64,000 nt of DNA from Symbiodinium natans (lineage: Eukaryota; Sar; Dinophyceae; Suessiales; Symbiodiniaceae): assembly GCA_905221605.1 (NCBI GenBank), contig CAJNDS010000079.1, positions 165,001 to 229,000 of the forward strand. Direction: 5' to 3'. The first letter of the stretch is position 1. Each line of letters begins with the position of its first letter. Shown one piece after another: positions 2,156 to 61,400 of this stretch. The notes under the pieces were generated by a model. It worked only from the letters and a program-made list of their open reading frames with translations, was not told where the DNA came from and ran no database searches. Both the position numbers and the translations under genes were made by a program.

Positions 2156-4492
2156 CTTGACTTGACTTGTCTCGTATTATTTGCTATGCCCTCTTATGGT
2201 GAAAACTTAATTCAAGCTCCTCAACCAGAGCCCAGAAATTGGTTGAGGGCGAGGATTTGGGATTCCAGCTTTAACGTCTAGGGTTTGGCTTTTCTGGCTT
2301 AGGGTTTTAAAGGTGTGTAGGGGTTACAAGCATTTTAAGTTTGCAGTTCCTGGTTTAGGCTATTAAGTGGGGTTTCACGTGCAGGTCCGGCGGCGGAGGA
2401 CCTTGAGCGCTCAACGAGTTCCAAGCTCCTGGGGGCACGCCTGGGATACTTGTTGGAAGGCTTTCCTCTGCAAGCTCAGCGAAGCACAGGTCAAGAAGAT
2501 CCGACGTTTCATGAGATGAGCAAGACGCTAGCCTTGAACAAAACTGGCCTGGGGTATAACAAGCTGTGCCCTCGTGATGGGAGACTTCATTGCAGCGTTG
2601 TAGATGCACTGGCCGCCGGTGACGCGCGGAGAGCTTCACACTTCTTATCCTGGTGCTGGGATTATCGCTTGCAGATGTACCTTGGGGACGAAATGGTTTA
2701 TGGTTCATTATGGTTCATATTCCTCAATAGGAATTATTGTAGTACAGGGTATATGACCCCTCAGTTTTGAGGTTCATTTGGTCCCCAAGGTATCTACAAA
2801 CCTGGACGCAGTGGCGTTCACAGCATCATGCGGAGGCCTTCATTTGGCAGTGCTTCTTCTGCAACAACCAGTACCTTGGGGACCAAAGGAACCCCAAGAT
2901 TGGGGGTCATATTCCCTATACTACCATAATTCCTATTACAAGGTATGTAACCATAAGCCCTTTTAGGGCCTATGGTTCCTAGTAAAGAAGCATAAACCCT
3001 TTCAGGGTTCCTGTCGTCCCCAAGGTATCGCCTCCAAGAAGGCCAGCAAGTGACGGATGAAAGCCTCGGCGACATCTTTCAAACCCGCCTGCTTGACATC
3101 CAGCAGATGCTTGGTAGCCCCGTAGTACCCTTTACCCTTTTTTTGGCTTCTGTGTGCCCTTCTAAATGAACCAACCAAAAAAGGGTTCCCTTTTGTTATA
3201 AGATGGTTACTGGGCTACCAAGGATGGTGGTGATGCTTGATAAGTTCATGCAGCCCAAGTACCTCGAACGTGTGTGGTGTGTCTACGCCACTCAGCAGTC
3301 CTTGGCAGGGCTTTTTTTGGCTGTCATAGGACACCGGGAGCTGTTCCTTGAGGACCAAATGAACCCCAAAATTGGGGTCATACACCCTACCTATACTACT
3401 ATATTTCCTACTCAGGTATATGACCATAAACGCTTTAAGACTGCATTTGGTCCCCAAGGTTGAGAAAGGGTTTGATTTTTTGCCCCCCGGAGTTGGCATG
3501 TGGGGCCTAAGGAGATGTACACGGCAGCCGCGAATTCCGACAGAGTTACCGTGGACATCATGTTGCCGCCCGACCAGGCTGCGGACATCCGGACGAAGAT
3601 CGCCTCTGGTGTCTGGGATGACATTCGCAAGAAGTTCCAGGAAGTCAATGTGGAGCATGCCAAGGCCCGGGTGCAGCGGGACGAAGACATGGTCAAAGAG
3701 CACATCAAGAAAGGTGCCGGGTTCGATGCGGTGAATGCGAAAGTGCGCGAGAAGATGATGGCATGGGTTCTCAAGCAAGTGGAGATGTTCTTGCTGGAGG
3801 ATGGCAAAGTCCGAAGTGGGGCAGACTTTTTGCGCACTGCTGGGCTTGCTGACTACATCGACAAGCTGGAGGAGCAGGGAATCTGCACTTTTGAAGATCT
3901 TGAGGACCCAGATGCTCCACTATCGCTCGATTTTTAGCGTTGCTTTTCCTAGGGGGGTTCCTTACATGTCCCAACTATAATAACTATAAGTGCAAGAATA
4001 TGCTGGTTCTGGGCCTTACTTGACACCAAACCCGAAGCCCCTAAACCCGAAAAGCCCAATACCCTGTACCTCGAAGACCCCACCCTTCTTGAGTCAACTT
4101 CGGAGTCACCCTAAACCCTACACCCTAAACCCTAAACCCTAAACCCTACGAGGACTTAGAGGATGCAGACTTGGCCGCCATCGGCTTCGATCCGGCCGCG
4201 CGCGAGCGTCTCCTGCAAGTGGTGAAGATGGGGCCGTCTGCGAGGGAGGAGACCGACTTCAAGGACACTGGGTTTAGGGTTTAGGTTTTACGGGTTAGGG
4301 TTTAGGTTGAATTTTCCAATACCTTACAACCTTTAGAGACGTCAGTTCGTTTAACTGATAGCTTAACAGGCTCCTCGGTCGATTTCTTCGAGCTGGTGAC
4401 CAAGTAAGGACAAGCTGCGGATGTTGGGCTTAACAGCAGATGTCTTCGAGGGTCTTTCTGAGGACGAGGCCCTCAAGAGCATGAGAGCATGA
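1961..4492 (+). CDS. TIR-like plus SAM-like domain protein
   Basis: Exons resolved by frame closure: about 1961-2057, 2385-2676, 2790-2870, 3025-3105, 3223-3286, 3512-3904, 4162-4263 and 4409-4492 (TGA). The intervening introns are GC-AG, GT-AG, GT-AG, GA-AG, GC-AG, GA-AG and GA-AG. From 2385 on, the spliced frame is 365 codons plus two bases with no stop until the end. Key motifs are LCPRDGR and ASHFLSWCWDY (exon 2), QCFFCNNQY (exons 3-4), MVVMLDKF and LERVWCVYEMYT (exons 5-6), then a long charged helical stretch. From about 3830 a SAM-like block follows (GLADYIDKLEEQGI, then AAIGF), split by the intron 3905-4161. The first half matches the domain at 560-1453. An enzyme or signalling role is inference; no start codon was identified. 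Confidence 0.7.
2677..2789 (+). mobile_element. Family A introner, complete GT-AG intron
   Basis: The insert begins GTACCTTGGGGACGAAATGG and ends TTTGGTCCCCAAG. The terminal inverted repeat is about 15 bp. The target GTA is repeated after the element. Removal joins CAG-AT to G-TAT and keeps the frame (Q-M-Y-L-Q-T-W). The 5' GT comes from the target duplication and the 3' AG is the last two bases of the element. Confidence 0.85.
2871..3024 (+). mobile_element. Family A introner, complete GT-AG intron
   Basis: Starts GTACCTTGGGGACCAAAGG, ends CGTCCCCAAG, and is followed by a repeated GTA. Removal joins AAC-AAC-CA to G-TAT-CGC, restoring C-N-N-Q-Y-R-L. It is 154 nt long, larger than the previous copy because of an extra internal block near 2945-3000. 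Confidence 0.85.
3106..3222 (+). mobile_element. Family B introner, complete GA-AG intron
   Basis: Ends are GATG|CTTGGTAGCCC and GGGCTACCAAG, an 11-bp perfect inverted repeat with a partial extension. The target GATG is repeated at 3223-3226. Removal joins CAG-CA to G-ATG-GTG and restores D-I-Q-Q-M-V-V-M-L-D. The body is unrelated to family A, but both share the CTTGG...CCAAG tips. Confidence 0.8.
3343..3458 (+). mobile_element. Family A element nested in an intron
   Basis: Ends GTT|CCTTGAGGACCAAATG and TTTGGTCCCCAAG, with GTT repeated on the right. It lies inside the GC-AG intron 3287-3511, so here it did not create a new intron but lengthened an existing one. Confidence 0.75.
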
Positions 4493-5370: not shown

Positions 5371-8300
5371 GTCATGCGAAACAGGAACATGGAGGAGAGG
5401 CTGCCAACCTTGGGAGACAAGAAGAAGTTCCGCAAGTGGCGTCAGTCCTGCTTGACGGGCGAGGCCGTTGTGGAGGAGCTGGTGGCTTTGGACATGCTTG
5501 TTGAGCGAGGCCCGGACTGGTGTTACGACGGTGACAGCGACGATGACATGACTCCCGAAGATGGGGGGCCTCAAGGTGTTGCTCGCTAGGCCCTTGGGAC
5601 ATTTTGTCTATTTTTTCGCTTATTATTGGGTTGAAGAGGACTCAGGAATATTTATGTCAGATGGGTTCATGGGGCCCATCCGAGGTTGGCAAAGTGGTGG
5701 CCTGGTGTTCTGCTTCGGGGGAGGCCTTCGGACCTGTTGCTCCAAGGCCTGGATGGGTCAAGGTGCACTGGCAAGTCACGGGACGCAAGCGGAGCTATCG
5801 AATGGGGACGCCGGAGCGTTCAGCAGAGCTCGTTTTCGCCGCAGCCATCGCCGATGCCCAAGCTGCACGAGCCCTCTCAGAGGTTCCAAAGGGTGAGATT
5901 CAGCTGCACCACCTGCGTTGTGGCTTTGGCTATCGCTGCGGCACGAGGTTCTCCCACTATGCCCTGTTTGACAATCGCATGGAGGCATGTGAGAAGGTGG
6001 CTGCATTCAAGCCAGGCGATGTCGTGGAAGACAAAGATGGGGACAGAGCCACGTGCGTTGGCTTGAAGTATCGCGCAGATGCCAAAAAAGTGGACATGTG
6101 GTTCCACTGCAATGGCAGAGACGGCGCAGGCCTGTTTACGCACGCAAGTCATGACCGTTGTCTTCGCAAAGTTGCGCACAAGCGCCTGCAAGAGGTGAGC
6201 CGAGATGATGCCGAAGGTGCTTCAGATGGTGAGATAGATCATGATGAGCGTGAATGGGTCGGTCAGAACCTGAAACCTACGCTGAAATACCTATCGAAAT
6301 CCGGGCAAGTGCTCCACTTCGACGTTCGTGACGAGATGGTTCGATGCTTCCGTATGCCTTTCAGGTCTGGTGACATATTGGTCGACAAGGCGGACGGCGA
6401 GCGGATGACTTGCATCGGCGTCGCGAGCGATCCCATGCGGCAGCTGGCCGCGCGCCAAAGAGGCTTGGGGGACCAAAAGGGCCCCTAAAATTGGGGTCCC
6501 TATTGAGGTACATGAACCTCAAACGCTTCTTGTCATATAGACCCTATGCTACCATAATCCCTATTGAGGTACACGATCCAGAAACCTTGTTTAGGGCTCT
6601 TTTGGTCCCCAAGAGGAGGTCGGAGGGTCCCCGGCAGTGTGGCCGAAGTGTGGTTCCACGTGGAGTCCTCGGAGGGCGCGGGGCTGAATCCCAAAATGCA
6701 CAAGATCCTTGGGGACCAAAAGAGCCCGAAAAGGGCTTAGGGATGTTAGGGTTTAGAGTTCAGGGTCCATGATGCCTTAATAGGAAGCACAGTAGTCTGC
6801 GGTATGACCCCGATTTTATGGTTGATGTTGGTCCAATGTTGGTCCTCAAGGATGCTGAGTCGATTCAAAGTGGTCGACAACCGGCCTGTCTTGGAACATG
6901 TGGCGCTTGGGAGCTCAGATGCGTGGGACATGGAAACTGCTTTGGGCTTGCTGGCCAGCCTGGATGGTGGATTGCAGTGTGACTTCAGCTTTCCCAGAGG
7001 TGCCGGGGAGAATGCCACACCCGACTTCTTTGATGTGCGACCCGAGCTTGTTTACAACGTGGTCGGCTTCCGGCCCGGAGATGTCTTGACCATTCGCGGA
7101 GGCAGGGGGGGGGGGGTTAATTTGCTTCACTTACTCCATTCACTCCCCAAGCAGTGCGTGTCAACAGCGAGGGCTTCTAACGTAAAGAGCTAGCGGGGGC
7201 GGGGGGGGGGGGGGGGGGCAGGATAGGTACATGATGCCCGGAGGGCGCTCCAGGCCGGGACCACCGTGCGTTTGTCTCGAAGCCTGCACGCTTGTTGGAC
7301 GAAAATCGCGCTCTCGCCCGGGCGCCCGCGGTGTGGCCATTGCTTTTATATATGTTCACCTTTCTTTCTTCTGTGTTGGCGAAAAGCGAAACTGCCGTCG
7401 CTTTTGGGTGTCCACGTTCGCAAAATGCGAAGCTGTCCGCGCTTCTGTGCTTGTGTGCTCGCGAATGAAACTGTCGTCGTTTTTGAACAGCCGCGTTCGT
7501 CAAATGCGAAACTGTCGTCACTTCGTGGTTTCTGGGTTCGCGAAATGCGAAGATGTCGTCGCTTTTGGGCGTCTGGGTTCGCTGGGGTCGTTTGCACGCG
7601 CTCTTGAACCATTGGAGTGCTTTGTCGTGTCCCCATCCATGATCTCTCACTGTTTGGGGCTTCGTGATATTTCGGGTTTGCCCGCTATCGGCATTTTGGC
7701 TTAATGTAGACTCCAGACTTCAATCGGATCTCTAATTTTAGGAGCCCTAAACCCTAAACCCCTACCTAAACTCTACATTTACGACACCTAGTTTTTGAGC
7801 GGCATTGCCAGGCCCGCCCGGCACTCGCTTGACCCTGATTGGTCTCCGTCCAGACCCCGACACTGGTGAGATCTCGGTTTGGTGGCATCATGAAGCCGCT
7901 TTGCCTGAACAGCTCAATGTCAAGCTGTGGGGTTTCGGGGTTTCGGGTGTAGGGTTTAAGGCATGATGAGATATGGGAGTTTCCCTAACCCTAGATTGAA
8001 GAAGGACCTCTAAACCATAGCTGTAACCACCAGATATGGTGATGAGATGCCATAGACCTGGGGGAGCTGCTTATTGCCGATCATTCAAGCACCCTCGCTT
8101 CCTGCATTTCGGCTGCTTAGGGTGTCAGCGTTTGGGGTTTAGGTAGGGGTTGCAAGCTAGCATCCAAGGACTTTCAGTGCGTCCATGCCGGAGCTGGCAA
8201 GATTCCTGGTTGGGAGCACATGCGGCAGATGATGCGAGACACAGGCCGGGAATTCCGTCTGGGTTTAGGGTGTATAGGGTTTAGGTTTAGGGTTTAGGGT

Positions 8301-19212: not shown

Positions 19213-19325
19213 GAACCTTGGGAACAAAATGAGCCCTGAACGGGTTTATGGTTCATATTCCTCCACAGAAGTTATAGTACTACTGTGTATGTGACCCCAA
19301 ATTTAAGGTTCATTTGGTCCCCAAG
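19213..19325 (+). mobile_element. Family A introner candidate with GA donor
   Basis: Starts GAACCTTGGGAACAAAATG, ends TTTGGTCCCCAAG, and is followed by a repeated GAA. Removal joins CTC-GC to G-AAT-GGC, giving L-L-A-N-G-I-T-L-R-F across the junction. The host gene (roughly 19140-19470) is unknown, so this is weaker than the copies in recognised genes. Confidence 0.6.
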
Positions 19326-26807: not shown

Positions 26808-26903
26808 TGTTTGGGATGTTCCCTATACTAACAGTCCTGAACAGGACCCCCTTTTTTTCTTCCCTATTCAGGACTGTTAGAAGAAGGGGAACATCCCAAA
26901 GTA
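26808..26903. mobile_element. Family D inverted-repeat element
   Basis: Ends TTTGGGATGTTCCC and GGGGAACATCCCAAA form a near-perfect inverted repeat. ACTAACAGTCCTGAACAGG and CCTATTCAGGACTGTTAG extend it to about 35 bp each side, so the element can fold into a long hairpin. Confidence 0.7.
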
Positions 26904-31233: not shown

Positions 31234-32214
31234 TTTCGGTGAACGCACGTACATACATATGTGCGTATTTATATACGTGCGCATGACCTGTTGTTGTTGT
31301 CTCTTGTGTTGTTCTTGGTCCCGAGACTGCGGTTTTATCGTGTAAATTTCACGTTTGCTTTCTCTGAAGAACCGCAGCTGCTATGCTGTTTGATGCAACC
31401 GGAGTCAAGAAATGACCCAGCCTGGCAGACGTCTCACTTTAACCATCCATATATTCTACGCTGCTAGTTCCACTAGTCTACCCTTTCGCCCCCATTAGTC
31501 GTGCAACAAATCTACATGGTATAGGTAGGGGCCACTTCGAAACAAACGAAGTTACAGCAAACTCGTCCCTCGTCATGGGAAGGTTTCATCAGGGGTTAGC
31601 GTCATTAGTTGGGATGTTCCCCCGTATACTAACAGTCAAAATAGGGAGTATAATCCCCATCAAGGGCTGCTAGCATAAGGGGCACATCCCAAGCCATCAG
31701 TAAGCAATTATTTCCTTTTTGGCAGATCGGAGGCACCAGGGCTTGTGATTTGTCATCATGGAAGATAACATATCCTCCAAGACTGTAGGACCAGCGGCAC
31801 GCCCTAACTTCCCTTTAATAAAGGGGGCTTATATACCCTATTATTTTGGTAAAGGGTGCGTAGTTAGTGCTGGCATGTCGTGTGATTTTGGAAGGCAACT
31901 TCTCCCAGAAAAACTTGGGCTGACGACTTGCCATGTTGGCAAGGTAAAGCCCATCCGACAATCCTCAGGCATGAATGTTGCATCCCTGCCACGTTGGTTG
32001 CGACACCCCTAAACCCTAAACCTATACCCTACTGTATAAAGCCTAAACCCTAACCCGTGAGCGCGACTTCGCACTGGCCACGAGGCCCACAAATCGTGTT
32101 TGGGGTTTGGGCTTTAGGGTTTAGGGAGAGCATGGCGTCCGACGTCCACAGAGCACACGCTCGTGACGCAGGATGCGCACTGCGCCTAGGCGAGAGCATG
32201 TCGGGCAAGCTCTA
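31234..32214. other. Spacer with family D element
   Basis: Outside the family D copy there are CCCTAAA units near 32010-32060 and a GTTTGGGG/TTTAGGG block near 32100. No gene recognised with confidence. Confidence 0.35.
31611..31691. mobile_element. Family D inverted-repeat element
   Basis: Ends GTTGGGATGTTCCCCCG and GGGGCACATCCCAAG. TATACTAACAGTC and GGCTGCTAGCATAAGG are the inner parts of the inverted repeat. Confidence 0.65.
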
Positions 32215-32324
32215 CCTTGGGGACGAAGTGAGCCCTAAAACGGTTTATGATTCATATACCTTGATATGAATTATCGTAGTTTAGGGTGTGTGAGCCCAAT
32301 TTAAGGTTCATTTGGGCCCCAAGG
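32215..32324. mobile_element. Family A element
   Basis: Ends CCTTGGGGACGAAGTGAGCC and GGGCCCCAAGG, flanked on both sides by TA. The surrounding sequence may be an early intron of the transporter gene. Confidence 0.65.
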
Positions 32325-32647: not shown

Positions 32648-35600
32648 GCTTCTCCAAGGCTCCGTGCAGCTGAACGTGTTCCTGAAGCCAGGGGCCTCAG
32701 AGGGGCCACAGTAAGTACATAGGGGCCCTCCGAGCTTTCAATCATCCCCAAGCCCCTGGTCTAAAGCTTCTCCGAAAGCGCTTGAACCATGTACGCCCTA
32801 AATGGGCTTTCAATGCCGAAGGTATCCTGTTCCTAGGTGACCTTCTAGCAGGACGGCTTGGGGCGGAGGGTCCAGGGTTGAGGGATGGATAGGGTTAACC
32901 CGCAACTCCGAAATTTAGTTTAAAGCCCTAGGCTTGAACCTTAAACCGAAAAGCCCTAAAACCCTAAGCCCTAAACCCTAAACTCTAAAGGCCCTAGACC
33001 CTAAAGCCCTAAACCCTGAACCCCAAAGTCCTGAATCACAGCCTCGGGAGGTCGCTCTTCGGCTTCGTGATGGCGCCGCTCTCCGACCGCATTGGGCGAC
33101 GGCCCGTGCTGACGACCTGCCTGGTGCCGAAGCAAGAGCTGTTTAGGGTTTAGGGGTGAGCCATGGTGATCAAATTTCTGGGCCAGTTGCTTTCCACCTT
33201 CATCTTGATCTCTTCCTGTTTCTTCCTTTCCCTCTCGCACTCCTTCACCCTAAACCCTAGACCCTAAACCCTAAACCCTAAACCCTAAGCTGGTAATTTC
33301 CAGAGGCCTCCGCCCTTGCTCCCCAAGGTGCTTCTGGTCTTCAGCTCTCTTTGTTGCGGGGTGGCGTCCAACATCTGGTTTGTGGCTGCACGCGTGCTCC
33401 AAGCAGTGGGGGAGGGAGCCGAGCCGATACTCTTTGCGATCGCGCGAAGCCTGGCGGGGCTAATACACCCTGGCGACCAAAAGAGCCCGAAAAGAGTTAA
33501 GGTTCATATATACCGTAATAGGGGATTATCGTAGGCTTTTAGGGTATGTGACCCACATTTTGGGGTTCTTTTGCCTTTTGGTTTTCAAGACACCCTAAGC
33601 TAATTCTGCGGCTCTGGACCCTCAACCCCGAATTCGGCCCGTAACCCCTCTGCCAGCAGATTGTTCCATCCAAAACCCTAAACCCTAAACCCTAAAAACC
33701 CCTACACCCTAAAAACCCTAAACACCCTAAACCCTAACCCAGGAGATTCTTTTCCAGAGGAGGAGAGGGTTGCTGCGCTCGCCTGGCTCTCGATGATGAC
33801 TGCCCTGAGCTCTGCGTTCGGACCCAGCCTTGGAGGAGATCCACCGGGTGTGTCGCAGTTCCCCTAACTCCTAAACCCTAACTCCTAAAACCCCCCTAAG
33901 TCCTAAACCCTTAAAACCCCTAAAACTTGTAGGGGCTTCGCCACTTGTGCGCGGGCGCAGCTTTTTGAAGAATGTTTTTGAGCTGTCGTCCGCTGCCTGG
34001 TGCCTGGGCTCAAGTAAAGGAACATGGACGCCTTTTGAGCTTCAGCCTTGGAGGACGGCCCAGGGGTGTGTCGCAGTGCCTTTCTTGGGCCCAACTTGAA
34101 ACCTGGATTCGGCCAAGACACCCCTCTTGGGCCCAACTTGAAACCTGGATTCGGCCAAGACACCCCTCTTGGGCCCAACTTGAAACCTGGATTCGGCCAA
34201 GACACCCCAACTTGAAACCTGGATTCGGCCAGGACACCCCTCTTGGGCCCAACTTGAAACCTGGATTCGGCCAAGACACCCCTCTTGGGCCCAACTTGAA
34301 ACCTGGATTCGGCCAAGACACCCCTCTTGGGCCCAACTTGAAACCTGGATTCGGCCAAGACACCCCTCTTGGGCCCAACTTGAAACCTGGATTCGGCCAA
34401 GACACCCCTCTTGGGCCCAACTTGAAACCTGGATTCGGCCAAGACACCCCTCTTGGGCCCAACTTGAAACCTGGATTCGGCCAAGACACCCCTCTTGGGC
34501 CCAACTTGAAACCTGGATTCGGCCAAGACACCCCTCTTGGGCCCAACTTGAAACCTGGATTCGGCCAAGACACCCCTTGAAACCCAACTTGAAACCTGGA
34601 TTCGGCCAAGACACCCCTCTTGGGCCCAACTTGAAACCTGGATTCGGCCAAGACACCCCTCTTGGGCCCAACTTGAAACCTGGATTCGGCCAAGACACCC
34701 CTCTTGGGCCCAACTTGAAACCTGGATTCGGCCAAGACACCCCTCTTGGGCCCAACTTGAAACCTGGATTCGGCCAAGACACCCCTCTTGGGCCCAACTT
34801 GAAACCTGGATTCGGCCAAGACACCCCTCTTGGGCCCAACTTGAAACCTGGATTCGGCCAAGACACCCCTCTTGGGCCCAACTTGAAACCTGGATTCGGC
34901 CAAGACACCCCTCTTGGGCCCAACTTGAAACCTGGATTCGGCCAAGACACCCCTCTTGGGCCCAACTTGAAACCTGGATTCGGCCAAGACACCCCTCTTG
35001 GGCCCAACTTGAAACCTGGATTCGGCCAAGACACCCCTCTTGGGCCCAACTTGAAACCTGGATTCGGCCAAGACACCCCTCTTGGGCCCAACTTGAAACC
35101 TGGATTCGGCCAAGACACCCCTCTTGGGCCCAACTTGAAACCTGGATTCGGCCAAGACACCCCTCTTGGGCCCAACTTGAAACCTGGATTCGGCCAAGAC
35201 ACCCCTCTTGGGCCCAACTTGAAACCTGGATTCGGCCAAGACACCCCTCTTGGGCCCAACTTGAAACCTGGATTCGCCACACTTGAAACCTGGATTTCGG
35301 CCCATGACACCCCTCTTGGGGTGGGCCCAACTTGAACCCTGGATTCGGCCAAGACACCCCTCTTGCCCCCTTGAAACTGGATTCGGCCAAGACACCCCCT
35401 CTTGGGCCCAACTTGAAACCTGTATTCGGCCAAGACACCCTCTTGGCCCACTTGAAACCTGGAATAGACCCCCTCTTGGGGCCCACCTTGAAACCTGGAT
35501 TGCGGCCAAGACAACCCCCTCTTGGGCCCAACTTGAAACCTGGATTCGGCCAAGACGCCCCTCTTGGGCCCAACTTGAAACCTGGATTCGGCCAAGACAC

Positions 35601-38600
35601 CCCTCTTGGGCCCAACTTGAAACCTGGATTCGGCCAAGACACCCCTCTTGGGCCCAACTTGAAACCTGGATTCGGCCAAGACACCCCTCTTGGGCCCAAC
35701 TTGAAACCTGGATTCGGCCAAGACACCCCTCTTGGGCCCAACTTGAAACCTGGATTCGGCCAAGACACCCCTCTTGGGCCCAACTTGAAACCTGGATTCG
35801 GCCAAGACACCCCTCTTGGGCCCAACTTGAAACCTGGATTCGGCCAAGACACCCCTCTTGGGCCCAACTTGAAACCTGGATTCGGCCAAGACACCCCTCT
35901 TGGGCCCAACTTGAAACCTGGATTCGGCCAAGACACCCCTCTTGGGCCCAACTTGAAACCTGGATTCGGACAAGACACCCCTCTTGGGCACAACTTGAAA
36001 CCTGGATTCGGCCAAGACACCCCTCTTGGGCCCAACTTGAAACCTGGATTCGGCCAAGACACCCCTCTTGGGCCCAACTTGAAACCTGGATTCGGCCAAG
36101 ACACCCCTCTTGGGCCCAACTTGAAACCTGGATTCGGCCAAGACACCCCTCTTGGGCCCAACTTGAAACGGGCCCAACTTGAAACCTGGATTCGGCCAAG
36201 ACACCCCTCTTGGGCCCAACTTGAAACCTGGGTTCGGCCAAGACACCCCTCTTGGGCCCAACTTGAAACCTGGATTCGACCCCTCTTGGGCCCAAATTGA
36301 AACCTGGATTCGGCCAAGACACCCCTCTTGGGCCCAACTTGAAACCTGGATTCGGCCCAACTTGAAACCTGGATTCGGCCAAGACACCCCTCTTGGGCCC
36401 AACTTGAAACCTGGATTCGGCCAAGACACCCCTCTTGCCCCCAACTTGAAACCTGGATTCGGACACCCCTCTTGGGCCCAACTTGAACCTGGATTCGGCC
36501 AAGACACCCCTCTTTCGCCCAACTTGAAACCTGGATTCGGCCAAGGCACCCCTCTTGGGCCCAACTTGAAACCTGGATTCGGCCAAGTCTTGGGCCCAAC
36601 TTGAAACCTGGATTCGGCCAAGACACCCCTCTTGGGCCCAACTTGAAACCTGGATTCGGCCAAGACACCCCTCTCGGGACCTGGATTCGGCCAAGACACC
36701 CCTCTTGGGCCCAACTTGAAACCTGGATTCGGCCAAGACACCCCTCTTGGGCCCAACTTGAAACCTGGATTCGGCCAAGACACCCCTCTTGGGCCCAACT
36801 TGAAACCTGGATTCGGCCAAGACACCCCTCTTAGGCCCAACTTGAAACCTGGGTTCGGCCAAGACACCCCTCTTGGGCCCAACTTGAAACCTGGATTCGG
36901 CCAATTGGGCCCAACTTGAAACCTGGATTCGGCCAAGACACCCCTCTTGGGCCCAACTTGAAACCTGGATTCGGCCCAACTTGAAACCTGGATTCGGCCA
37001 AGACACCCCTCTTGGGCCCAACTTGAAACCTGGATTCGGGCAAGACACCCCTCTTGGAAACCTGCCACCCCTCTTGGGCCCAACTTGAAACCTGGGTTCG
37101 GCCAAGACACCCCTCTTGGGCCCAACTTGAAACCTGGATTCGGCCAAGACTTGAAACCTGGATTCGGCCAAGACACCCCTCTTGGGCCCAACTTGAAACC
37201 TGGATTCGGCCAAGACACCCCTCTTGGGCCCAACTTGAAACCTGGATTCGGCCAAGACACCCCTGGGCCCAACTTGAAACCTGGATTCGGCCAAGACACC
37301 CCTCTTGGGCCCAACTTGAAACCTGGATTCGGCCAAGACACCCCTCTTGGGCCCAACTTGAAACCTGGATTCGGCCAAGACACCCCTCTTGGGCCCAACT
37401 TGAAACCTGGATTCGGCCAAGACACCCCTCTTGGGCCCAACTTGAAACCTGGATTCGGCCAAGACACCCCTCTTGGGCCCAACTTGAAACCTGGATTCGG
37501 CCAAGACACCCCTCTTGGGCCCAACTTGAAACCTGGATTCGGCCAAGACACCCCTCTTGGGCCCAACTTGAAACCTGGATTCGGCCAAGACACCCCTCTT
37601 GGGCCCAACTTGAAACCTGGATTCGGCCAAGACACCCCTCTTGGGCCCAACTTGAAACCTGGATTCGGCCAAGACACCCCTCTTGGGCCCAACTTGAAAC
37701 CTGGATTCGGCCAAGACACCCCTCTTGGGCCCAACTTGAAACCTGGATTCGGCCAAGACACCCCTCTTGGGCCCAACTTGAAACCTGGATTCGGCCAAGA
37801 CACCCCTCTTGGGCCCAACTTGAAACCTGGATTCGGCCAAGACACCCCTCTTGGGCCCAACTTGAAACCTGGATTCGGCCAAGACACCCCTCTTGGGCCC
37901 AACTTGAAACCTGGATTCGGCCAAGACACCCCTGGGCCCAACTTGAAACCTGGATTCGGCCAAGACACCCCTCTTGGGCCCAACTTGAAACCTGGATTCG
38001 GCCAAGACACCCCTCTTGGGCCCAACTTGAAACCTGGATTCGGCCAAGACACCCCTCTTGGGCCCAACTTGAAACCTGGATTCGGCCAAGACACCCCTCT
38101 TGGGCCCAACTTGAAACCTGGATTCGGCCAAGACACCCCTCTTGGGCCCAACTTGAAACCTGGATTCGGCCAAGACACCCCTCTTGGGCCCAACTTGAAA
38201 CCTGGATTCGGCCAAGACACCCCTCTTGGGCCCAACTTGAAACCTGGATTCGGCCAAGACATGTAGGCTTCGCCCTAGAGCCCCGAGTCGAGCGCCCACA
38301 AACTTGCAAAGAAAGAGCTTGCAATTCCGCACACGGAGACTTGTGATCCTTGCGTCTGTCGAACCGACCTCATACCCTGGGGTGCGACGGCGGTTGTGCC
38401 TGACTTCCACAGTAGCCCCTGATGGCAAATCCTTCAGGGAACTGAAAACTGAAGAACGTGATGTTGGGGATTCTCATTTGTGCGAGCAACCTTTTGCTTT
38501 GTGACGTGACATACAAGCTCGAAACGCGCACATTGAAGTTTAGTTTTCTTAACATGAAAAGAGTTGAGAATCCTTCCGACAGCAAATAGCCAGCTGGAGG

Positions 38601-42687: not shown

Positions 42688-43800
42688 ATGGCGGAGGCAT
42701 GCCGGCGGCAGCTCGGGCTCAGCACCAAGGCTCTCAGCGTCTGCGGATGGGCTGTAGGGTTTGGGGTTTAGGCGCTTAGGGTTTAGGAGTTTAGGGTAGG
42801 GTTTATGGGGTTTATAAGGTTTAGGGTTTAGCATTTATAGGGTTTGGGGCTTCTGCATCTGCAGGTCCAGGAGCTGCCGCGGGCCGCAGAGGCTTTTGGG
42901 GTTCGCAGCGGACTCCCCGTGGCTTCAGCTTTTTCTTACTGTTGGTTGGCAGGGAATGGGGGGGAATGAGGTACCCTATATATTCCCTCAAAGGGTAGAT
43001 ATTAGGGATATGGGGTACCTCATTCCCTCATTCCCTACAAGCCAACAGTAAGCTTTTTTGGGGCACTGAGACAGGCCGAGGAGCAGCTGGCAGCCGCGTC
43101 CTCGGAGGCTCAAAGTCTTGAATTAGGGGTTTTGTCCGCAGACAATGCTATACAATAATATACAATGATATACCACATCACAAAAAATATACACAATAGT
43201 ATGCAAAACATATTCAAGAGAATATACAATAGCAATAATCTCAATAACCTACCATTTTTGTGCATATCAGAACCTGGAGTCGACTGCCTCCTCCTGCCGA
43301 AACCTTGTTTCAGAATGGTGGTAGAGATGTGCATGTGTAAACTGTGCATGTGGAGCCATGGCGAGGCACCGAAAGCTCGCTTCGAGAAGGAAGCGGAGGC
43401 AGATTTGCGAACACTCTGCACTGTGCCGATGGAAGTTGGGCGAGCTTCCCTTTTGCTCCTGCGGGTGCAGGACATGAAGGCGGCACAGCCGCGCGAGATG
43501 GAGGCTCCAAAAAAAGGGAGGGAACGACACCCACTCCCGAGCCTTGAGGATGCATCTGTTTCTATCGTAGGAGCAGCAGAGCGAGCAGGCGGCACCCACG
43601 GATACAGCAGGAGCTGCAGCCTCAGTTTTGAGGGGAGCCCACACCCAGCAAGTTGTGTAAAGTCCTGTGCGCAGCACTCGGAAGCCGGATGCAGGTGCCA
43701 CAAGGCATCCGCTTACAGTTCTTCCTGGACTTCATCGAGGATTGGAACCATCTCTCATTGTAGCCGACGCTCAGGGTTGGGCTGAGCATAAATATAACAA
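42688..43800 (+). other. Possible exons of an unknown gene
   Basis: Pieces with protein sense: 42688-42755 (MAEACRRQLGLSTKALSV), 42866-42935 (VQELPRAAEAFGVRSG), 43066-43110 (ALRQAEEQLAAASSEAQS, helical) and a frame to 43785. An AT-rich insert occupies 43140-43260. The joins could not be proved. Confidence 0.3.
42939..43056. mobile_element. Family E inverted-repeat element
   Basis: Ends CTTACTGTTGGTTGGCAGGG and CCCTACAAGCCAACAGTAAG form a long inverted repeat. The flanking CTTTTT is duplicated. Inner GAATGAGGTACCC and GGGTACCTCATTC make a second inverted pair. Confidence 0.75.
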
Positions 43801-44945: not shown

Positions 44946-44967
44946 TCTCCCTAAACCCTAAACCCCA

Positions 44968-45948
44968 AAGGTGGCGTATGCTCATCTGGACGAGCCGGGG
45001 GAGTTCGGGCCCCTGAGCTGCTTCGCTTCTCATTTTTGGGGAGAGGACGCCGGGATCAAATTCGTGTGAGCGGGTTCTCCTTGGGCTTTTTGGGGTTTAG
45101 GGTTTAGTGTTGAGGATGTTCCTGCAGGGCGAACTGAAGTCATGCCATGTCATGTCTTGTGTCGTGTACATGGAAGGAGACGCTCGAGTTCGCCCGCACG
45201 CTGCACCTCCATGCCAAGACCGTGCACCCCTCGAACCCAGGCCTGTCGACTTTCGAAGCTCTGGTCTTTGATGCTTGGGGGTTTAGGGTTTAGGGTTCAG
45301 GGTTTAGGGTTGTTTAGGGTTTAGGGTATTTAGGGTTTTTAGGGTTTAGGCATGGTTTTCCTTGCACAATTTTCACCCTGGCCAGCGAGTTCGCTGTGCA
45401 GGCGCACTGGTGTACTACATCTGCACGTCGCCTGCCTTGAGTCGGTGGGGTAAGGCATGCACAGATGCCTCGGGGGGGATGCTTTCTTGAAGTTTCAAGG
45501 CCAAGTCTGTGCATGTCCCCCTGTCGATTACAAGGTTTTGCAACAGCCAGCACAGCGTGGCCTTCGCCTTAAACCTTGGCTGAGTCTCAGGCGTGGGATG
45601 CACGCGAGATTTTTTAAGCCCAGGACCTTGGAGACGACTGGCGCCAGTCGCCCTTCAACCGCGCGCTGGAGTACGTGGCGGCCCGTCCCTAGCCCAGGGT
45701 AAGTCCGGGTGGCAGACCATCCGAACCGTTCCCGGTCCGGGTTGCGTGATAGGAGCCTTCATGAGGCTATCACGCGAGGAGCGGGCCGATGTACAGAGCC
45801 GTCATGCTGTGCGAACCCCAGCTGTGCTTGTGCAACTGGTAGCAGCTCTTACATTGTGCTCATTGCCTGCGCTTGGCAGAGTAGGGAATGAGGGCATTAG
45901 GGCCCTTTATCTATATTATATCTATATCTATAATATCTATACACATAC

Positions 45949-52400: not shown

Positions 52401-55400
52401 GGCCTGCTAGCTGCTACATGACTGTATAGCTGCGCAGTCTCTCCACTGAGTACAATAGAGCAACACTTCGCACCGCTCAGAGTTTGAGTCCGAGAGGCGC
52501 TTTCAAGACCTTCCTGGAGGGCCCCGCCATCAGCGGCCCCGCTCCCGCCGCACCCGCTGCTCTGTCCGAGCTGACCCTGCGAGCCGAGCTCTCCGAGCAG
52601 CCCGGGGGCCCAAAAACTCACATACCCTGGACTACTACAATTCCTCTTGAGTTGTAATCTGAGACCCTGTTTGGGGCTCATTTCGTCCCCAAGGAGTCTC
52701 ACGACTTTTTCTGTGCGCTCTTTGCAAAGCCAGGCTGCACTTCCGGCCCCTGCAGCTGCTGCCGCTGAGCCCGCAGATCGCAGCCAGGCGCATTCGGATG
52801 CCAGTACCTTCAAAAGGAGATGAACATGGATAAACCCTGAAAAGGGTTTATGGTTCATACTACCTTGAAATAGGAATTGTACTAGAACATGGCATGTGAA
52901 CCCCAATTTTATGGTTCATGTGGTCCCCAAGGTAGTGAGTGGCAGAAGTTTGCGGAAGAAGAAGCTCCGTTCACAGGATTTCAAAGGTCCCCGAAGAGCT
53001 TCTGCAAACGCTGCCGGACGCGGCGCCTCGGCTGCGGTGAGCCCGTCGCTGTCTGCAAGATACAACAGCCTAAAGCCTCCAAAAAGATAATATTCCCCAG
53101 ATGACTCGTATAAGGAGGAATCTTTGTTATTTGTTGTTTGTTCTTCAGCAAATAGTAGCAGCTCATGTGTTTGATGGAATTGACTTCTGCGACTCTGAAC
53201 TGTTGAGACTTCTGCACGTTAGGGCAGGGATGGTGAGGGTCACACATGCAAGGGAGCTGCTTGTGCACCTGACCACCGATAGGGGGAAATTCTGGCTCGT
53301 TTCGCTGCTGCGGGCCTCGGGCCACCGAAAAAGAATCTTTCCTGTGACCCCAGCACTTTCTTGATATCAAACCCTTGAGATCACGCTCCCCTTCGACATT
53401 ACAGGCCCCCCCCCCCCCAAGGGCCCCCCCCCCCCCCTAGAAGAGAGGGATGCCTGCGAAGTCTTCTCCCAGGTTTGGGGCACGCCGTTGATGGCCAGCA
53501 TCCTCGGCCGCCTCCTCGAAGTGAGCAAGCGTCGCTTCTGATTGCAAATCCTTCGCCGCGCGGTCCGTGTGAAGCATCAGGAAGATACCGGCAGCAGCAG
53601 GACGAATTTACGGCGCAACACCCCGTGCACCTGCGATCATCCGATCTCCCGGCCCGAAAGGAAGACATGCACACAGTGGCTGCGGAGTTGGACCTGATGA
53701 AATATGCGGTTGAAGTGCTCATCACGCAGGCGCGCAAGAAGCTTGATGGCCTGATGATATAGTGTTCCATCCAGCCGCTGTCTGTGCGTTCGCAAGAAAC
53801 TCCTCCTTCGCTTGTCCACGAAAATGCTCAAGTGACTTGAAGAGCAGTTGCATTGAATGATGATCCCAGGATGGGCTATTATAGCCTACAACCCCCTTGA
53901 AAACGGCACCTTTCTAGGGCTGATCAACCCTAAAACCCTATAAACCCTATAAACCCTAAACCCTATAGACCCCTCAGCCATAAACCATCCTGGTCGTCTC
54001 AGAGTGCACGCGAAAGGCTGAGGAACGCACGGGCCGCCAGCTGAAGGCCTTGGGACCCCGGTGCCTGGAGAAGCTGCAGGCACCCACCTCGTCTGCACTT
54101 TAAGGTACGGGGGACCGTGGGAGGGTTTAGGGTTTGGGGTTTATGGAAATTGTATAGTTACAGAAATTGTATAAGGTTTGGGTCCCAAAAAATGTGACTG
54201 AAAGTTTTGACCGAAGTTTTAAGTTTTGAATGTACCCAAGAGCCACTTGAAGCACAACCGTCCCAGCAGATGGGGTCGTTTGTCGCGTGCAGAGCTTGAG
54301 CGGGCCTTCACGAGATCGCCCAGATCCTCCGTGAGGAGAGGAGCTTCCAATACATGCTGTACTCGCCGCTACTGTAACGAGGTCACGTTGTGGTCGTGCG
54401 GGGAGCAAAGTTGTCTCGAAACCTTGCGCATCGAGACCGTCGAGATCGAGCCGGAAGCAAATTTAAAGATACCACGAAGCTTCGTGTGTGCCAACGTAGA
54501 GGCAAACAAAATAGTCACGAAACCTCGCGCGTCGAGACCGTCGAAACATCGAGCCGCGCCCCAACAGAGTGTGGAACAAATTTGTCTCGCACCCTCGTCG
54601 AGACCGTCGAGACACCGAGCCGCGCCCAAACGTAGAGGGGAGCAAAATTGTCACGAACTCGGCTTGTCAGCTGTTGAGACAAATACCTTGGGAAGTTCGG
54701 AATGATGACATGAGTCTTTGTCACCCAGTTACTTATAAATTTTGTGTATTTTGTCTTGGGGTTAGGGTTTGGGGTATGGGGTTTAGGCTTAGGGTTTAGG
54801 GTTTCGGGAGGTCGCGGCTGTCAGGCCGGACACCGCCTACTCCTCAAGGCCGACTTCGAAGATCAGGCCATGGCTTGGGGGACCAAACCTTGGGGACGAA
54901 GTGAAGCCTAAAAGGGTTTACGGTAATATGCCTGAATAGGAACTAAAGTAGTCCAGGGTAGACGACCCCAATTTTAGGGTTCATTTGGTCCCCGGGGTAG
55001 GGGTACCGTATTGGGGTCCTGTTTATAAGGGGGTCCTACTATTTGGGGGTCCATGTTAGGGGTCCTTTGTTTTCGTAAATTCCCGAATGACGCCTAGCCC
55101 TAAACCCTAAACCCTAAAAAATGGGGTCATAATACCATGTCATTCTTATTAAGGTAAATGAACCATGAGCCCCTTTTTAGGGTTCACCTGGTCCCCAAGG
55201 AACGCGAAAGCCAGCACAAACTCTGCGTTTGCTGCTCCACTCTGAAAACCGTTTTCCGGTCTTTCCACTCTCCTACCACAAGCGACCCGCTTCATTGATG
55301 AACTGCACTGGCGTCACACGAGGCTCGCCTCTGAACCCTCAACCCTAAACCCTAAGCCTCTGAACCCGAAGCCCTAAATTCCAGGTTTGCTCCACCGTAG

Positions 55401-58400
55401 AAGACTTGCAGGTGGTCTTCCAGGAGGCCCAGCGGGGGCACCTTCGCCTCCTTGAGCCGGTGGCCGGGGAGAGCGCCGCGCCGCCGGCGCGGTTCTTTTT
55501 GAGAAGAACAGGGTTTAGGGTTTATGGGTTTGTAGGGTTTAGTGTTTTGGGTAGCGGATTCCACAGCCAGGTGCAGGTGTACCACCTGAAGATGCACGAG
55601 TTCCTGGCCGCCGAGGCCCAGAGAACAACCCGCAGAGACGTTCTTACAAAGGGCTGCATCTCGCCAAGTTTCTTGGGGACCAAATGCACCCTGAAAGGGC
55701 ATTATAGTAGTACAGGGTGTATGACCCGAATTTTAGGGTTCATTTGGTCCCCAAAGTCGAGTTGAAACTTCACTGACTGTTAGGCTTGGAAAGCGGCCAG
55801 AGCCTTGGCATGCGAAGCAGTGCCCCAACAGCCGTGATGCCGCGAGAAAGTGCGACAACCTGCGAGTGGCCCAGAACTCACGCCTTTTGGTACATCTGCG
55901 ATAGGAACGAATTGGGTATATGTGCACCACTACCTTCAGAAAACTGGACTAATTTCATGTTGGACGAACATGTGCCATTAAGCGCGCTCGTGGTTTTGCC
56001 TCTTCCTGTTGGGAACTACTGAAGAGCACGATGTAGTGTCAATGCTACTCCCGGCTTTCCCATGGGAAGGGTGGCTTAGGCCCTGCCCTGTTCAACACCA
56101 CCCAATATGCTCGAAGCGGGGGGCAAGAAAACAGAAGGCACGCAGGAAGCCTTGCTTGCAAAAAGGGTGCCGAATCGACCGAATTTGTTGCTTTTCCAAA
56201 TCTTCCAACATGCCAAAAGCAATTTAACCAAATGAAACCTACATCTTAAAACGGTACCTTTCCAAATCTTCCAACATGCCAAAACCAGCAAAAGCTCAAA
56301 ACCTACATCCCAAAATGTTACCCAAAAAGGCAAAATCTCAAAACCTACATCCCAAAACGGTGCATGCCCAAATTTTCCAATATGCCCAAAGCAGCAAAAG
56401 CTCAAAACCTACTTTTTTTTGCATGTTGGAAGACTTGGAAAGGCAACGTTTTGGGATGTAGGTTTTGAGCTTTTGCTGCTTTTGGCATGTTGGAAAATTT
56501 GGGCATGCACCGTTTTGGGATGTAGGTTTTGAGACCAAAAACGGTGCCTTTCCAAATCTTCCGACATGCCCGAAACAGCAGAAGCTCAGAACCTACATCC
56601 CGAAAACATTACCTTCCCGTATCTTCCAACATGCCAAAAACAGCTACAGCTCAAAACCTTCATCTCAAAACGGTGCCTTTTCAAATCTTCCAATATGCCA
56701 AAAGCAGCAACAGCTCAAAACCTGTGTCCCAAAACGTTGCCTTTCCAAATCTTCCAACATGCAAAAAACATGCAGGAGCTCAGAACCTACATCTCAAAAC
56801 ATTGCCTTTCCAAATCTTCCAACATGCGAAAGACAGCGAAACCTCAAAACCTACATCCCAAAAAGTTGCCTGTCCACCAGTGTTTTCTCGATTTCTCCAA
56901 AGTTCAAAAAAAAAAACATTTTTTGCAGTTCTTGCTAACATTGAAAAATCAATACAATGACCTCTCATCATGGCCAGAACGACTTAAGAGTCGCCCAGCC
57001 TCGATTTCCATTCCATTCGAATTTTTTTGGCAAAGCTTCGATTGCGTTCTCTTGTCTTTGATTTTCCAAAATGGCCAAACAGAAATTCAACAGGCACACT
57101 GAAATTTGACAGAAGATTGAGCAGAAGAAACTCTGCTTTCTTTCAGGCTGGGTGCCCTCAATCTTTATCTTTCGTTTTTGGTTGCGTGTTGCAATTCTTC
57201 CCTAAATTCAGCACCATTCAACGAATTTTCAAAATTTCTAAAGTCTCCGAAAATGTTGAAAAAAATCCTCAAAATCAACACTTGATCAGTTAAATTTGTT
57301 GAATTTACTCTGGTGTTTCGCTCGTCCTCGAACATGCCAAAAACAGCAAAAGCTCAAAACTACATCCCAAAAACGTTACTTTTCCAAAATCTTCATTTAT
57401 TCGGAAAGTGCCAAAAACAGCAAAAAAAAAAAAAAGCTCGAGTGGCTTCAAGAGCCCACAAAAACCATGAAAAATGTCAACCCCAAGTTGCTTGGTTTTA
57501 GGGCTTATCATTGCCAGCAACATATGCCACATGATGGCAGTGTCACGAGAAAAGAACAAACGGGCCAACATCCGCATGTCAGGTTCGGTGCCAAATGTCG
57601 CCAACTCGAGAAGGTCCCAAAGTTTTGAAGACGTCACGCCCAATCCAAAATGAAAACCGGCGGCTTGGAGGGCCCGATGGCCCGTTTTTGGGGCGACGAA
57701 ACCCCTCTCGGGCCCTCTGTGCGCTCTGTGTTCGGATTGAGGCCAACCTGGAGCTCAAGGAGGCCTTCAACCTGGCCCGAGATGAGCCCATGCTGCGAGG
57801 CCAAAGTGGGGTCATGCACCCTACACTGCTATAACTCCTATTCAGGTATTAGGAGCCCTAAACCCTATACTACTATCATTCCCAGTAAGGCATGATGCGC
57901 CATAAACCCTTTTAGGACGCATTTGGGTTCCTAAGCTTCTCCTGCAGTCCCCGAGTTACCCTCGGAGGCGCGGCGCGGTACCTGGTGATGTTGGAGACCG
58001 CCGGGAAAGAGGAGGCGCTTGGGGACCAAATGAACCCTAAGATTGGGGGTCATACACGCTATACTACAATAATTCCGATGAGGGTATTATGAACCGGGTT
58101 CATGATACCTTAGTAGGGAATTCTAGTAGTGCAGGGTGGATGGGTTGCCCTAAACCCGTATACTACTATAATTCCGACTAAGGTATGATGAACCCTAAAT
58201 CCTTGTAGGGTTCATTGGGTGCACAAGGCGGTGGTCGACCTCTGTGGCTGCAACCTGGGAGCTGCCGACGTCGAAGCCCTCCGAGGACTCCCGAATCGTG
58301 TGAAGGGTAGAGAAGAGAAGATTAGAGAGCAGAGAAGAGTAGAAGAGTAGAAGAGAGAAGAGTAGAGGGAGAGCGGAAGAGAGAGCACAGATGCGCAGCT

Positions 58401-61400
58401 GTTGAGGAGCACTGCTCTGCAGGGGCCGCCTCAGGATCCTCCTGGCCAACAACACGATCGGCCACTGGCTCAGTGGGAGCTGCCTTGGGGACGACATGAA
58501 CGCTAAAAGGGTTTCCGGTTCATAATACCTCAATAGGAATTATAGTACAGGGCAGATGACCCCATTTTAGGGTTCATCTGGTCCCCCAAGCTGTGAAGGC
58601 CGTAGGCTACCGCATGCTATACCACGATCTCGCGCACGAATATCGCGTCCCGCGAAGGCCCCGATGGCTTCGACTCCCTGGCCGCCGCTTTGGCCGCCTG
58701 CGGCTCCGGGCTCACGGCGCTCGAGGTGAACTTGTACCTTGGAGACAAAATGATCCCCAAAATGGGGGGTCAAATACATTCATATACCCTATACTACTAC
58801 AATTCCTGTTAAGATTAATATGAACCCTAAACCCTTTTAACATTCATTTCGTCCCCAAGGTACGACTCCCAGATCAGCCCGGGCCACAGCTGGGCAACAG
58901 ATGAGGTGTTAAACTGTTAAACCTCGTCCAGGTTTCTACTTCGACTTCGGAGGCACCTGAAGAAATATATCTCGAGTGTGTCTAAGCCCTCAACCCCAAC
59001 CCCAAACCATCCAACCCTAAACCCTAAACCCTGTAAACCCTGTAAACCCTTCACAGATTTCTACTTTATCCAATTTCTTTCTGCTTCAGAGGGTCGTCTT
59101 CAGCTGATGCCTTGAAGTTTTTCGAAATTGAAATGTCATGAAAAATATATACATACATACATACATACATACTTATCAACAATACATATATACATATGTA
59201 TAGCTACATAGGTTCTTGGGTGGAAACTGTCTGCATGTTTCGTGCTCCGACCAAGACGACGCGGAAGTGGCCTCGCTCGCGGAGGCCCTGGGCGGCCTCC
59301 TCGGGCTCCGGGAGCTGCGGGTGAACCTGGGCCTCTTCGGTCAGATCTACGACAGAGGCCTCAGCTCGGGCCTGAGGGGTTTGGGGTTTGGGGTTTAGGG
59401 CCTGAGACGACGCGGCGGGGAGCGAGGAGTTTCGGTGGGGAAGATTTCCAAGACGGTTTTCTTTGCTCGCTGAGGTGAGGCGGGAGCCCGGAGTCTGGCC
59501 GGCGCCTTGCGGAAGCTGCCGAGCTTGGAGAAGCTGACTCTGGAGCTGTGCGAGAACAAGCTCGGCGCGGGGCCTCGGAATTTCAGGGGGTGAGGGGGGG
59601 AGTGCAATGTGCACATGACGCGTGAAGGCTTGCGACATCCTTTTGGTGCACTCACTGGGCAAGCAACTAACTTTGTCAAGGCACAGGAGAAAATCGAGGG
59701 CGAATCTAGATTCAATCTAGTTTATCCAACTGGGATGCCGACTTGCCTGAAGAAGCTCATCGTCCCATGGCACGCTTAAACCAACGTCCGACATGATCAA
59801 AACACGGAAAAGTTCGCCTCCCAAACATGCCCGAGCCTTGTACACAACCCCGGAGCTGTGCTTCCCATTGTCCATCCGGGACATGCAAGCTGCCGAAGCT
59901 TCGAGAGCTCCTCGCGACAATCAAGCTGCCTCTGGCTGCCAATAGGGTGGAGCTTGACAGAAGGTTGCAGCTCCATCTCCATGTGAACGAAGCCCTCAAC
60001 CCTAAACCCTAAGCCCGAAGCCCTAAACCCAACACCCACCCTACACCCCAAACCCAAGCCCCCCCTTTGCTCTCGACCAAGGCGACGATGGAGCGGCCTT
60101 CCTGGCAGATGCGCTGGGCGCCCTCACCCGGCTCCGGCGGCTGGAGGTGGGGGGTTTACCATATGAGAGGGGTACCTTGGGTACCTGATGAACGTCCTAC
60201 TATTTGGGGGTTTCGGGTTTAGGGCTTCGGGCTTAGGGCTTAGGGTTGGGGATCCTGCTATTTGGGGGTGTATATTAGGGCTATTCGGCCAGGTGAATCT
60301 CTGCAAAGGCGGCCTCAGCTTGGGCCTGAGACGCTCAGGACCTTTGGGACCAAAATGAACGCCCTAGAATCTGTGGGCCGATGCTACTATATAATTCCTA
60401 GGGTATTCTGAACCATAAACCCTTCTGATCAGTTCTTTTCCCCCCCCCCCCCAACAAAAAAGGGAGGAGGCATGACTTCAGACGCCCGACCCCGGCGCCA
60501 GCGCCTCCGAGGCGAGGCAGGCGGTCGGAGCTTGGCCGACGCCTTGAGGAAACTGCCGAACCTCGAGGAGCCCAGAACAGAATCGCAAGAGACGCAATCG
60601 TGCTCAGAATGGCAAGAATGCCCCTAAAGCCTGAACCCTAAACCCTTTTTCTCCCTCGGAGGAGCTCTTCGTCTTGTTGGATCAAAACCGGCTCGGCTCG
60701 GGGCCTCGGATGAAGTGCTGCTTTTGGAGGCAAGCACAGAGGAACAGGAGATATGTTTTGTAGGGTTTTGGGTTTAGCATTTAGGGTTTGGGGTTTGTGT
60801 TTCGTAGGGTTTAGGGTTTCGAGGGTTTACAGGGTTTTGGGTTTAGGGCTTTGCGCTGTTGGGAAAGGATGTGGGGGCAGAGGTGTCTGATCACTGGGTT
60901 CACGTTGCCTGTTGCTTGTCACAACGGCTTGTTTCCAGCTCGAACATGTGGGACTATACGCAAAAAACGGGATCCCTAATACAGACCCGTAGGATTCCCT
61001 GAAAATAAGGACCTCAATAAGGTATACCCCCCATATGCCTTGTATCGAAAATCCCTTCCATGTGGCCCGAGGCGCCGCCGCAGCCTCGTTCGGGGACGCC
61101 CTGGGCGGCCTCGCGAAACTTCGGGAGCTGACCGTGAACTTGGAAAGGAACGGGGCCGGCTCGGGGCTCAGAAGCAGGGAAAGCGCTCCGCAGCTATTCC
61201 GAAGCTTCAGACTGAAGCCGGCTTCATGTTCAGGTGAGGAGGGCGCCCGGAGTTTGGGCGACGCCTTGAAGAAGCTGCCGAGCTTGGAGAAGCTGAAGGT
61301 GTACTTGCTCGACAACAAGCTTGGCTCGGGGCCTACTCGGATTTCAGGCGGAAGGCCAATGTGCAACGTATAGAAGGCTTGGTAGGTGGAAAGGCTTAGA

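Follow-up and report, generated by a model that had tools for sequence, protein, structure and literature searches.

The window, as the whole 64-kb stretch of DNA analyzed here is called, contains a plus-strand gene (gene 1; 2450–3940) that is read in at least five exons (2450–2676, 2790–2870, 3025–3105, 3223–3286, and 3512–3940); these form a single open frame once 2677–2789, 2871–3024, 3106–3222, and 3287–3511 are removed. The gene 1 product has no Pfam match above cut-off. A 292-residue query, extended upstream within the same exon, identifies 14 homologues, of which the one that carries an organism name is from Symbiodinium pilosum; the homologue P0001, 95% identical over 47% of the query, spans none of the four junctions.

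The first two of the removed stretches are complete copies of one transposon, A1 (2677–2789) and A2 (2871–3024), each read on the plus strand as a GT-AG intron of gene 1. The coordinates that an earlier note on this DNA had assigned to them proved exact, as did the CCCCAAG that closes A1 at 2789 and A2 at 3024. Both copies start with GTAC, run through CTTGGGGAC to an end at GTCCCCAAG, and are then followed by GTA, so that GTA stands at 2677–2679 and 2790–2792 (A1) and at 2871–2873 and 3025–3027 (A2). The A1 element proper, CCTTGGGGAC..GTCCCCAAGG, occupies 2680–2790 with TA duplicated, and is inverted relative to the A2 element at 2874–3025. Joining 2676 to 2790 yields ...LQMYLQTW... and joining 2870 to 3025 yields ...CNNQYRLQ..., in a single open frame; if retained, the stretches of 113 nt (A1) and 154 nt (A2), neither a multiple of 3, would introduce stops in all three frames. 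The A1 junction aligns without a gap in 10 of the 11 homologues that cover it, the remaining one having a single extra residue, and the A2 junction does so in 13 of 13, through FCNNQYR. The proposal in the earlier note that removal of A1 and A2 closes the frame on a sensible protein is borne out, with homologues backing both junctions, and the view that each copy fills a whole intron, removable as GT-AG, is supported by a restored frame that aligns with homologues and from which splicing is deduced.

The third candidate intron (3106–3222, plus strand, GA-AG) corresponds to an element with a different inverted repeat (CTTGGTAGCCC) and GATG flanks, of which this is the single copy within the window; its junction is ungapped in 13 of 13 covering homologues. 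A putative GC-AG intron lies at 3287–3511 (plus strand), where the junction (WCVY^EMY) is ungapped in 12 of 13 covering homologues and the other one has 29 extra residues. Copy A3 (3346–3459) sits within this intron, therefore some copies are not whole introns, and the earlier generalization that the inverted-repeat elements are themselves whole introns stands for A1 and A2 but not for every copy. The A3 region (3343–3460) has the appearance of an insertion into an older intron, which it would lengthen without making a new one.

Copies Elsewhere in the Window

Gene 2 is a long frame at 5547–7130 interrupted by two further copies, A4 and A5, both on the plus strand. A5 (6704–6850) reads as a GA-AG intron, whose junction has no gap in any of six homologues or in either of two gene 2 paralogues from the same assembly. 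A4 (6463–6615) reads as a GC-AG intron with AGG flanking the core on both sides; its removal closes the frame, and its borders are less certain because the product there falls 2–3 residues short of the nearest homologues (P0015, P0016, and P0018) and exceeds the remaining three in length. The paralogues, at 48–50% identity in one comparison and 44–45% in another, continue through the A4 and A5 sites without intron or stop, one being 3 residues longer and the other 14 shorter at the A4 site. They could be old retrocopies and therefore back splicing more than they date the gain of the introns.

A9 (58015–58227; GC-AG) and A11 (58734–58859; GT-AG), also on the plus strand, are each a candidate intron of a putative gene, and the frame closes on removal of each. 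Three more complete cores are A6 at 19217–19325, with GAA on both sides; A7 at 32216–32323, with TA duplicated between CTA on the left and GTA on the right, which fits 2 bp and not 3 bp; and A10 at 58484–58590, whose removal gives no convincing frame. The joined peptides of A6, A9, and A11 have no Pfam match above cut-off, and a leucine-rich-repeat reading of the A9 and A11 peptides was discarded as unsupported. With at most one mismatch, CTTGGGGACC occurs 37 times in the window vs. 8.02 expected, a count that 0 of 100 shuffles reach. At 54874–55200, ends of this family (family A) apparently lie one within another (CTTGGGGGACCAAACCTTGGGGACG), separated by telomere-like tracts.

The Family across the Assembly

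A search of the assembly (759,417,921 bases in 2543 contigs) found CCTTGGGGACC 1171 + 1150 times, vs. 219 + 229 for the pattern read backwards, and 421 complete pairs, defined as cores with 75–105 bases between them, vs. 6 for the reversed control pattern. Fifty of the 421 complete copies were examined, taken from the start of the contig order rather than drawn at random. C precedes the CTTGGGG core in 47 of the 50 and G follows CCCCAAG in 46, therefore the repeat is taken as CCTTGGGGAC...GTCCCCAAGG. Cores measure 96–123 bp, a range set by the search pattern, and elements are mostly about 100–150 bp in size.

The target duplication is 2 bp; the G that leads it belongs to the host, and the G that trails the acceptor is the last base of the element. 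A 2-bp duplication lies just outside the repeat in 34 of 50 copies (right-flank shuffles: mean 5.5, maximum 14 in 5000), and in 16 copies either a clean 2-bp duplication or a terminal base is missing. The duplicated pairs are A/T-rich, mainly AA (9), TT (6), AT (5), and TA (5). The GTA that the earlier note had taken as a repeated target at A1 and A2 consists of host G plus TA on the left and element G plus TA on the right; its letters do recur on both sides, but the wider set of copies speaks against a 3-bp duplication. A 3-bp (GNN) duplication, with the element one base shorter on one side, would explain the identical 3-base flanks of nine of the ten complete window copies (not counting one extra 5′ C), the better fit of A4, A9, and A10 to a 3-bp repeat (AGG, GCG, and CTG) than to the 2-bp form with intact ends, and the repetition of all three bases in A10, L031, and L040, which lack the terminal G. 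Among the 50 copies, however, the GNN form fits 21 and its mirror image 12, nine copies fit 2 bp only and 14 fit none of the forms, and the 3′ G is present in 46 irrespective of the base before the duplication; the 3-bp form is thus unlikely, and the 2-bp duplication is used below.

Being short, with inverted repeats and a target duplication and no transposase inside, the element has the features of a miniature inverted-repeat transposon. Tc1/mariner transposons are known for duplicating TA, a pair found here in 5 of the 34 copies with a 2-bp duplication, and PIF/Harbinger transposons generate a 3-bp TWA duplication, which this family does not. Pfam detected no transposase among 10 of the 84 listed window ORFs, and four stretches around widely spaced repeats, read as ORFs only, hold frames of up to 264 codons. 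No relatives of the family were found in prokaryote and viral contigs, and Rfam and tRNA scans gave no matches.

Codon-Phase and Domain Tests of Element Borders

Element borders were tested genome-wide by codon phase, in 49 copies (the A1 locus was left out because its gene belongs to the training set). A first version of the test that counted both strands was uninformative, strands lacking a donor G being raised too (22/37 and 31/61 coherent), and was replaced by one comparison per copy. Exact removal, of the element and 2 bp, ranked best for codon phase in 27, 24, 28, 31, 32, and 28 of 49 copies for six window sizes (p 0.017 to 4.7e-6); with the six bases next to the junction omitted, the counts are 34 and 31 of 49. 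The genome-wide excess at intron borders that the earlier note had anticipated is seen by codon phase, at 24–34 of 49 vs. 16.3 expected, in eight settings that share data and with a codon model drawn from four genes.

Twenty-three copies are coding-like by this analysis and 26 of 49 show no clear coding signal; many of the 23 joined reads contain stops, therefore some of these copies represent noise or the wrong strand. Ten joined peptides from the coding-like copies, picked by eye for stop-free frames with the donors in view, were compared with Pfam: seven match a family at E 0.05 or better, and four matches reach the curated cut-off while spanning the junction. These are Ank_4 (ankyrin) in L048, with residues 1–50 on profile positions 1–50; Ank_4 in L041; DUF4116 at the first copy of L037 (at 1501); and PK_Tyr_Ser-Thr at the second copy of L037 (at 2238), which is just above its cut-off, the Pkinase match there (E 2.2e-6) being below its own. 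Orientations among the 10 readable exonic copies are 6 and 4.

Similar elements lie as apparent introns at unrelated positions, in genes 1 and 2 and in the unrelated domains of L037, L041, and L048, and the intron borders coincide with element ends such that removal restores coding sequence, more weakly so for A4. If the copies were instead ordinary inverted-repeat transposons lying within pre-existing introns or pseudogenes, they would set no intron borders, a picture that suits A3 inside its longer intron and the copies that show no clear coding signal. It is nonetheless very improbable for the family as a whole, in that homology places the borders of A1, A2, and A5 at the element ends to the base and exact removal outperforms shifted removal genome-wide; the preferred reading is that the elements themselves supply the borders.

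Proposed Mechanism of Intron Formation

On the sense strand, a G stands before the duplication in 17 of the 23 coding-like copies (antisense, 6/23) and in 7 of the 26 others (antisense, 11/26). When junction bases are omitted, G precedes the duplication in 14 of 20 coding-like copies vs. 12 of 29 others (Fisher p 0.045) and, at a second setting, in 14 of 19 vs. 13 of 30 (Fisher p 0.036). The direction of this enrichment is that expected if insertions after G survive best in exons, although the contrast is modest and the sorting of copies rough. Starts among the 20 coding-like copies are GA (8), GT (3), GC (2), and GG (1), with six lacking the G; in L053, one of the readable copies, the donor would have to be GG. 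A GT donor is not required, because copies starting with GC and GA behave alike, and the earlier idea that the target gives the 5′ GT and the element end the AG is retained in its core but not in its insistence on GT.

The elements very probably constitute a family of non-autonomous DNA transposons with a 2-bp, A/T-rich target duplication that acts as a spliceosomal intron when inserted after an exonic G. Insertion into an exon just after a G, presumably mobilized by a transposase, would duplicate a 2-bp A/T-rich target, and the transcript would then read G-NN-CCTTGGGG...CCCCAAG|G-NN. The host G and the first duplicated base would form the donor (GT, GC, or GA), and the acceptor would be the AG close to the inverted-repeat end. 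On splicing at the RNA level, the host G would leave with the intron and the terminal G of the element would take its place, and mRNA length and sequence would therefore be kept; either orientation would work because each repeat gives CCCCAAG on one of the two strands. Selection may then keep exonic insertions that are preceded by G. This agrees with the introner mechanism suggested in the earlier note, in which the insertion site is the donor start and the inverted repeat provides the AG; homology and the codon-phase excess both point the same way. Spread as RNA, through reverse splicing of excised introns, has been proposed for fungal introners without inverted repeats or duplications (PMC9860276), but the present family has inverted repeats, a target duplication, and copies in both orientations, and for it such a route is exceedingly improbable next to transposition as DNA.

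A more tentative extension, which we consider possible but doubtful, is a strict one-for-one exchange of G in which the host G becomes the donor and the terminal G its replacement in the mRNA. Any exonic GNN whose first N is other than G would then offer a potentially neutral target in a host where GT, GC, and GA all serve as donors; over repeated rounds, such insertions might account for loose donors and a near-fixed AG|G. If this is true, the loose donors and AG|G acceptor of dinoflagellates would be footprints of insertion geometry.

Predicted RNA folding is stronger than in shuffles for A1 (z −3.28), A2 (z −4.98), and the element at 3106–3222 (z −3.69), and less markedly so for A11 (z −2.27) and A5 (z −1.51). 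In the predicted fold, the repeats pair the intron ends and leave the first four bases free; the excess is a consequence of the inverted repeat and does not prove that folding matters for splicing.

Relation to Known Introners

Introners of Micromonas and Aureococcus, the subject of work by Huff and colleagues in 2016, are reportedly DNA transposons that derive splice sites from their repeats and the duplicated target, as here, in different hosts. Some of them are described as miniature inverted-repeat elements with duplications and others as lacking duplications (PMC9860276). Judged by the features examined in its sequence, the present family is an introner family, a further one of a known kind for which a published dinoflagellate example exists (PMC9860276). 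In that example, the introners of Symbiodinium microadriaticum bring their own 3′ site, and their 5′ site comes from a 4-bp duplication (Fig. 2B legend of PMC9860276); its family 1 has inverted repeats like those of the present family, whereas, by description only, its 4-bp duplication differs from the 2 bp plus host G and element G seen here (PMC9860276). The methods of the same paper (Gozashti et al., 2022) also seek matches in opposite orientation. Introners that likewise create introns, in many families, were reported from five dinoflagellate genomes (Roy et al., 2023, Curr Biol, as summarized in PMC11453091), and the present family may already be among them.

Inverted-repeat introns have been described in Amoebophrya and Prorocentrum (PMC7789003, PMC10666404), and repeated intron borders in dinoflagellates are cited from Mendez et al., 2015 (in PMC7789003). 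The Amoebophrya introner elements resemble the present ones in their 8–20 nt inverted repeats, 3–5 nt direct repeats at intron borders, and predicted hairpin; as described, however, their splice sites vary widely with no family-specific repeat, (PMC7789003), whereas in the present family a single repeat, with AG|G, is found hundreds of times. Donors tabulated for Symbiodiniaceae are GT, GC, and GA, and AGG accounts for 79.7–97.1% of acceptors across six species and, in the parasite Amoebophrya, for 56.5% (PMC10666404, table); the putative introns of the window likewise start with GT, GC, or GA and end in AG|G. Together with the S. pilosum homologue of gene 1 and the frequent TTTAGGG tracts, these borders make a dinoflagellate source for the DNA very probable.

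The making of introns from transposons is already known, and what is new appears to be how the present family does so; since the phenomenon has been published, the added value lies in the detail of the mechanism and in a clean test family. A literature search of partial coverage found no 2-bp duplication with G exchange, which may already be in print. With hundreds of copies in a single genome, the family would exemplify at base level how transposons serve as introns while the protein is unchanged, and its insertion geometry yields a prediction that can be tested on the unusual splice sites of dinoflagellates, namely their mixed GT/GC/GA donors and common AG|G.

Other Repeats in the Window

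Several other repeats were observed. A tandem array with a 42-bp unit occupies 34083–38261, its minus strand open in all three frames over about 1000–1500 codons; matches there to Lysostaphin_N and Galaxin-repeat probably reflect the repetition. An inverted-repeat element at 42935–43052 (CTTACTGTTGG...CCAACAGTAAG), with CTTTTT on both sides, perhaps represents another element family, and two elements at 26810–26900 and 31609–31692 have in common the inverted repeat TTGGGATGTTCCC and an inner CTAACAGTC motif. Interstitial TTTAGGG/CCCTAAA tracts are numerous (4108–4306, 33141–33283, 44949–45350, and others), often as facing inverted pairs, and at 56201–56876 a 64-bp tandem repeat with copies in both orientations creates long near-perfect palindromes.
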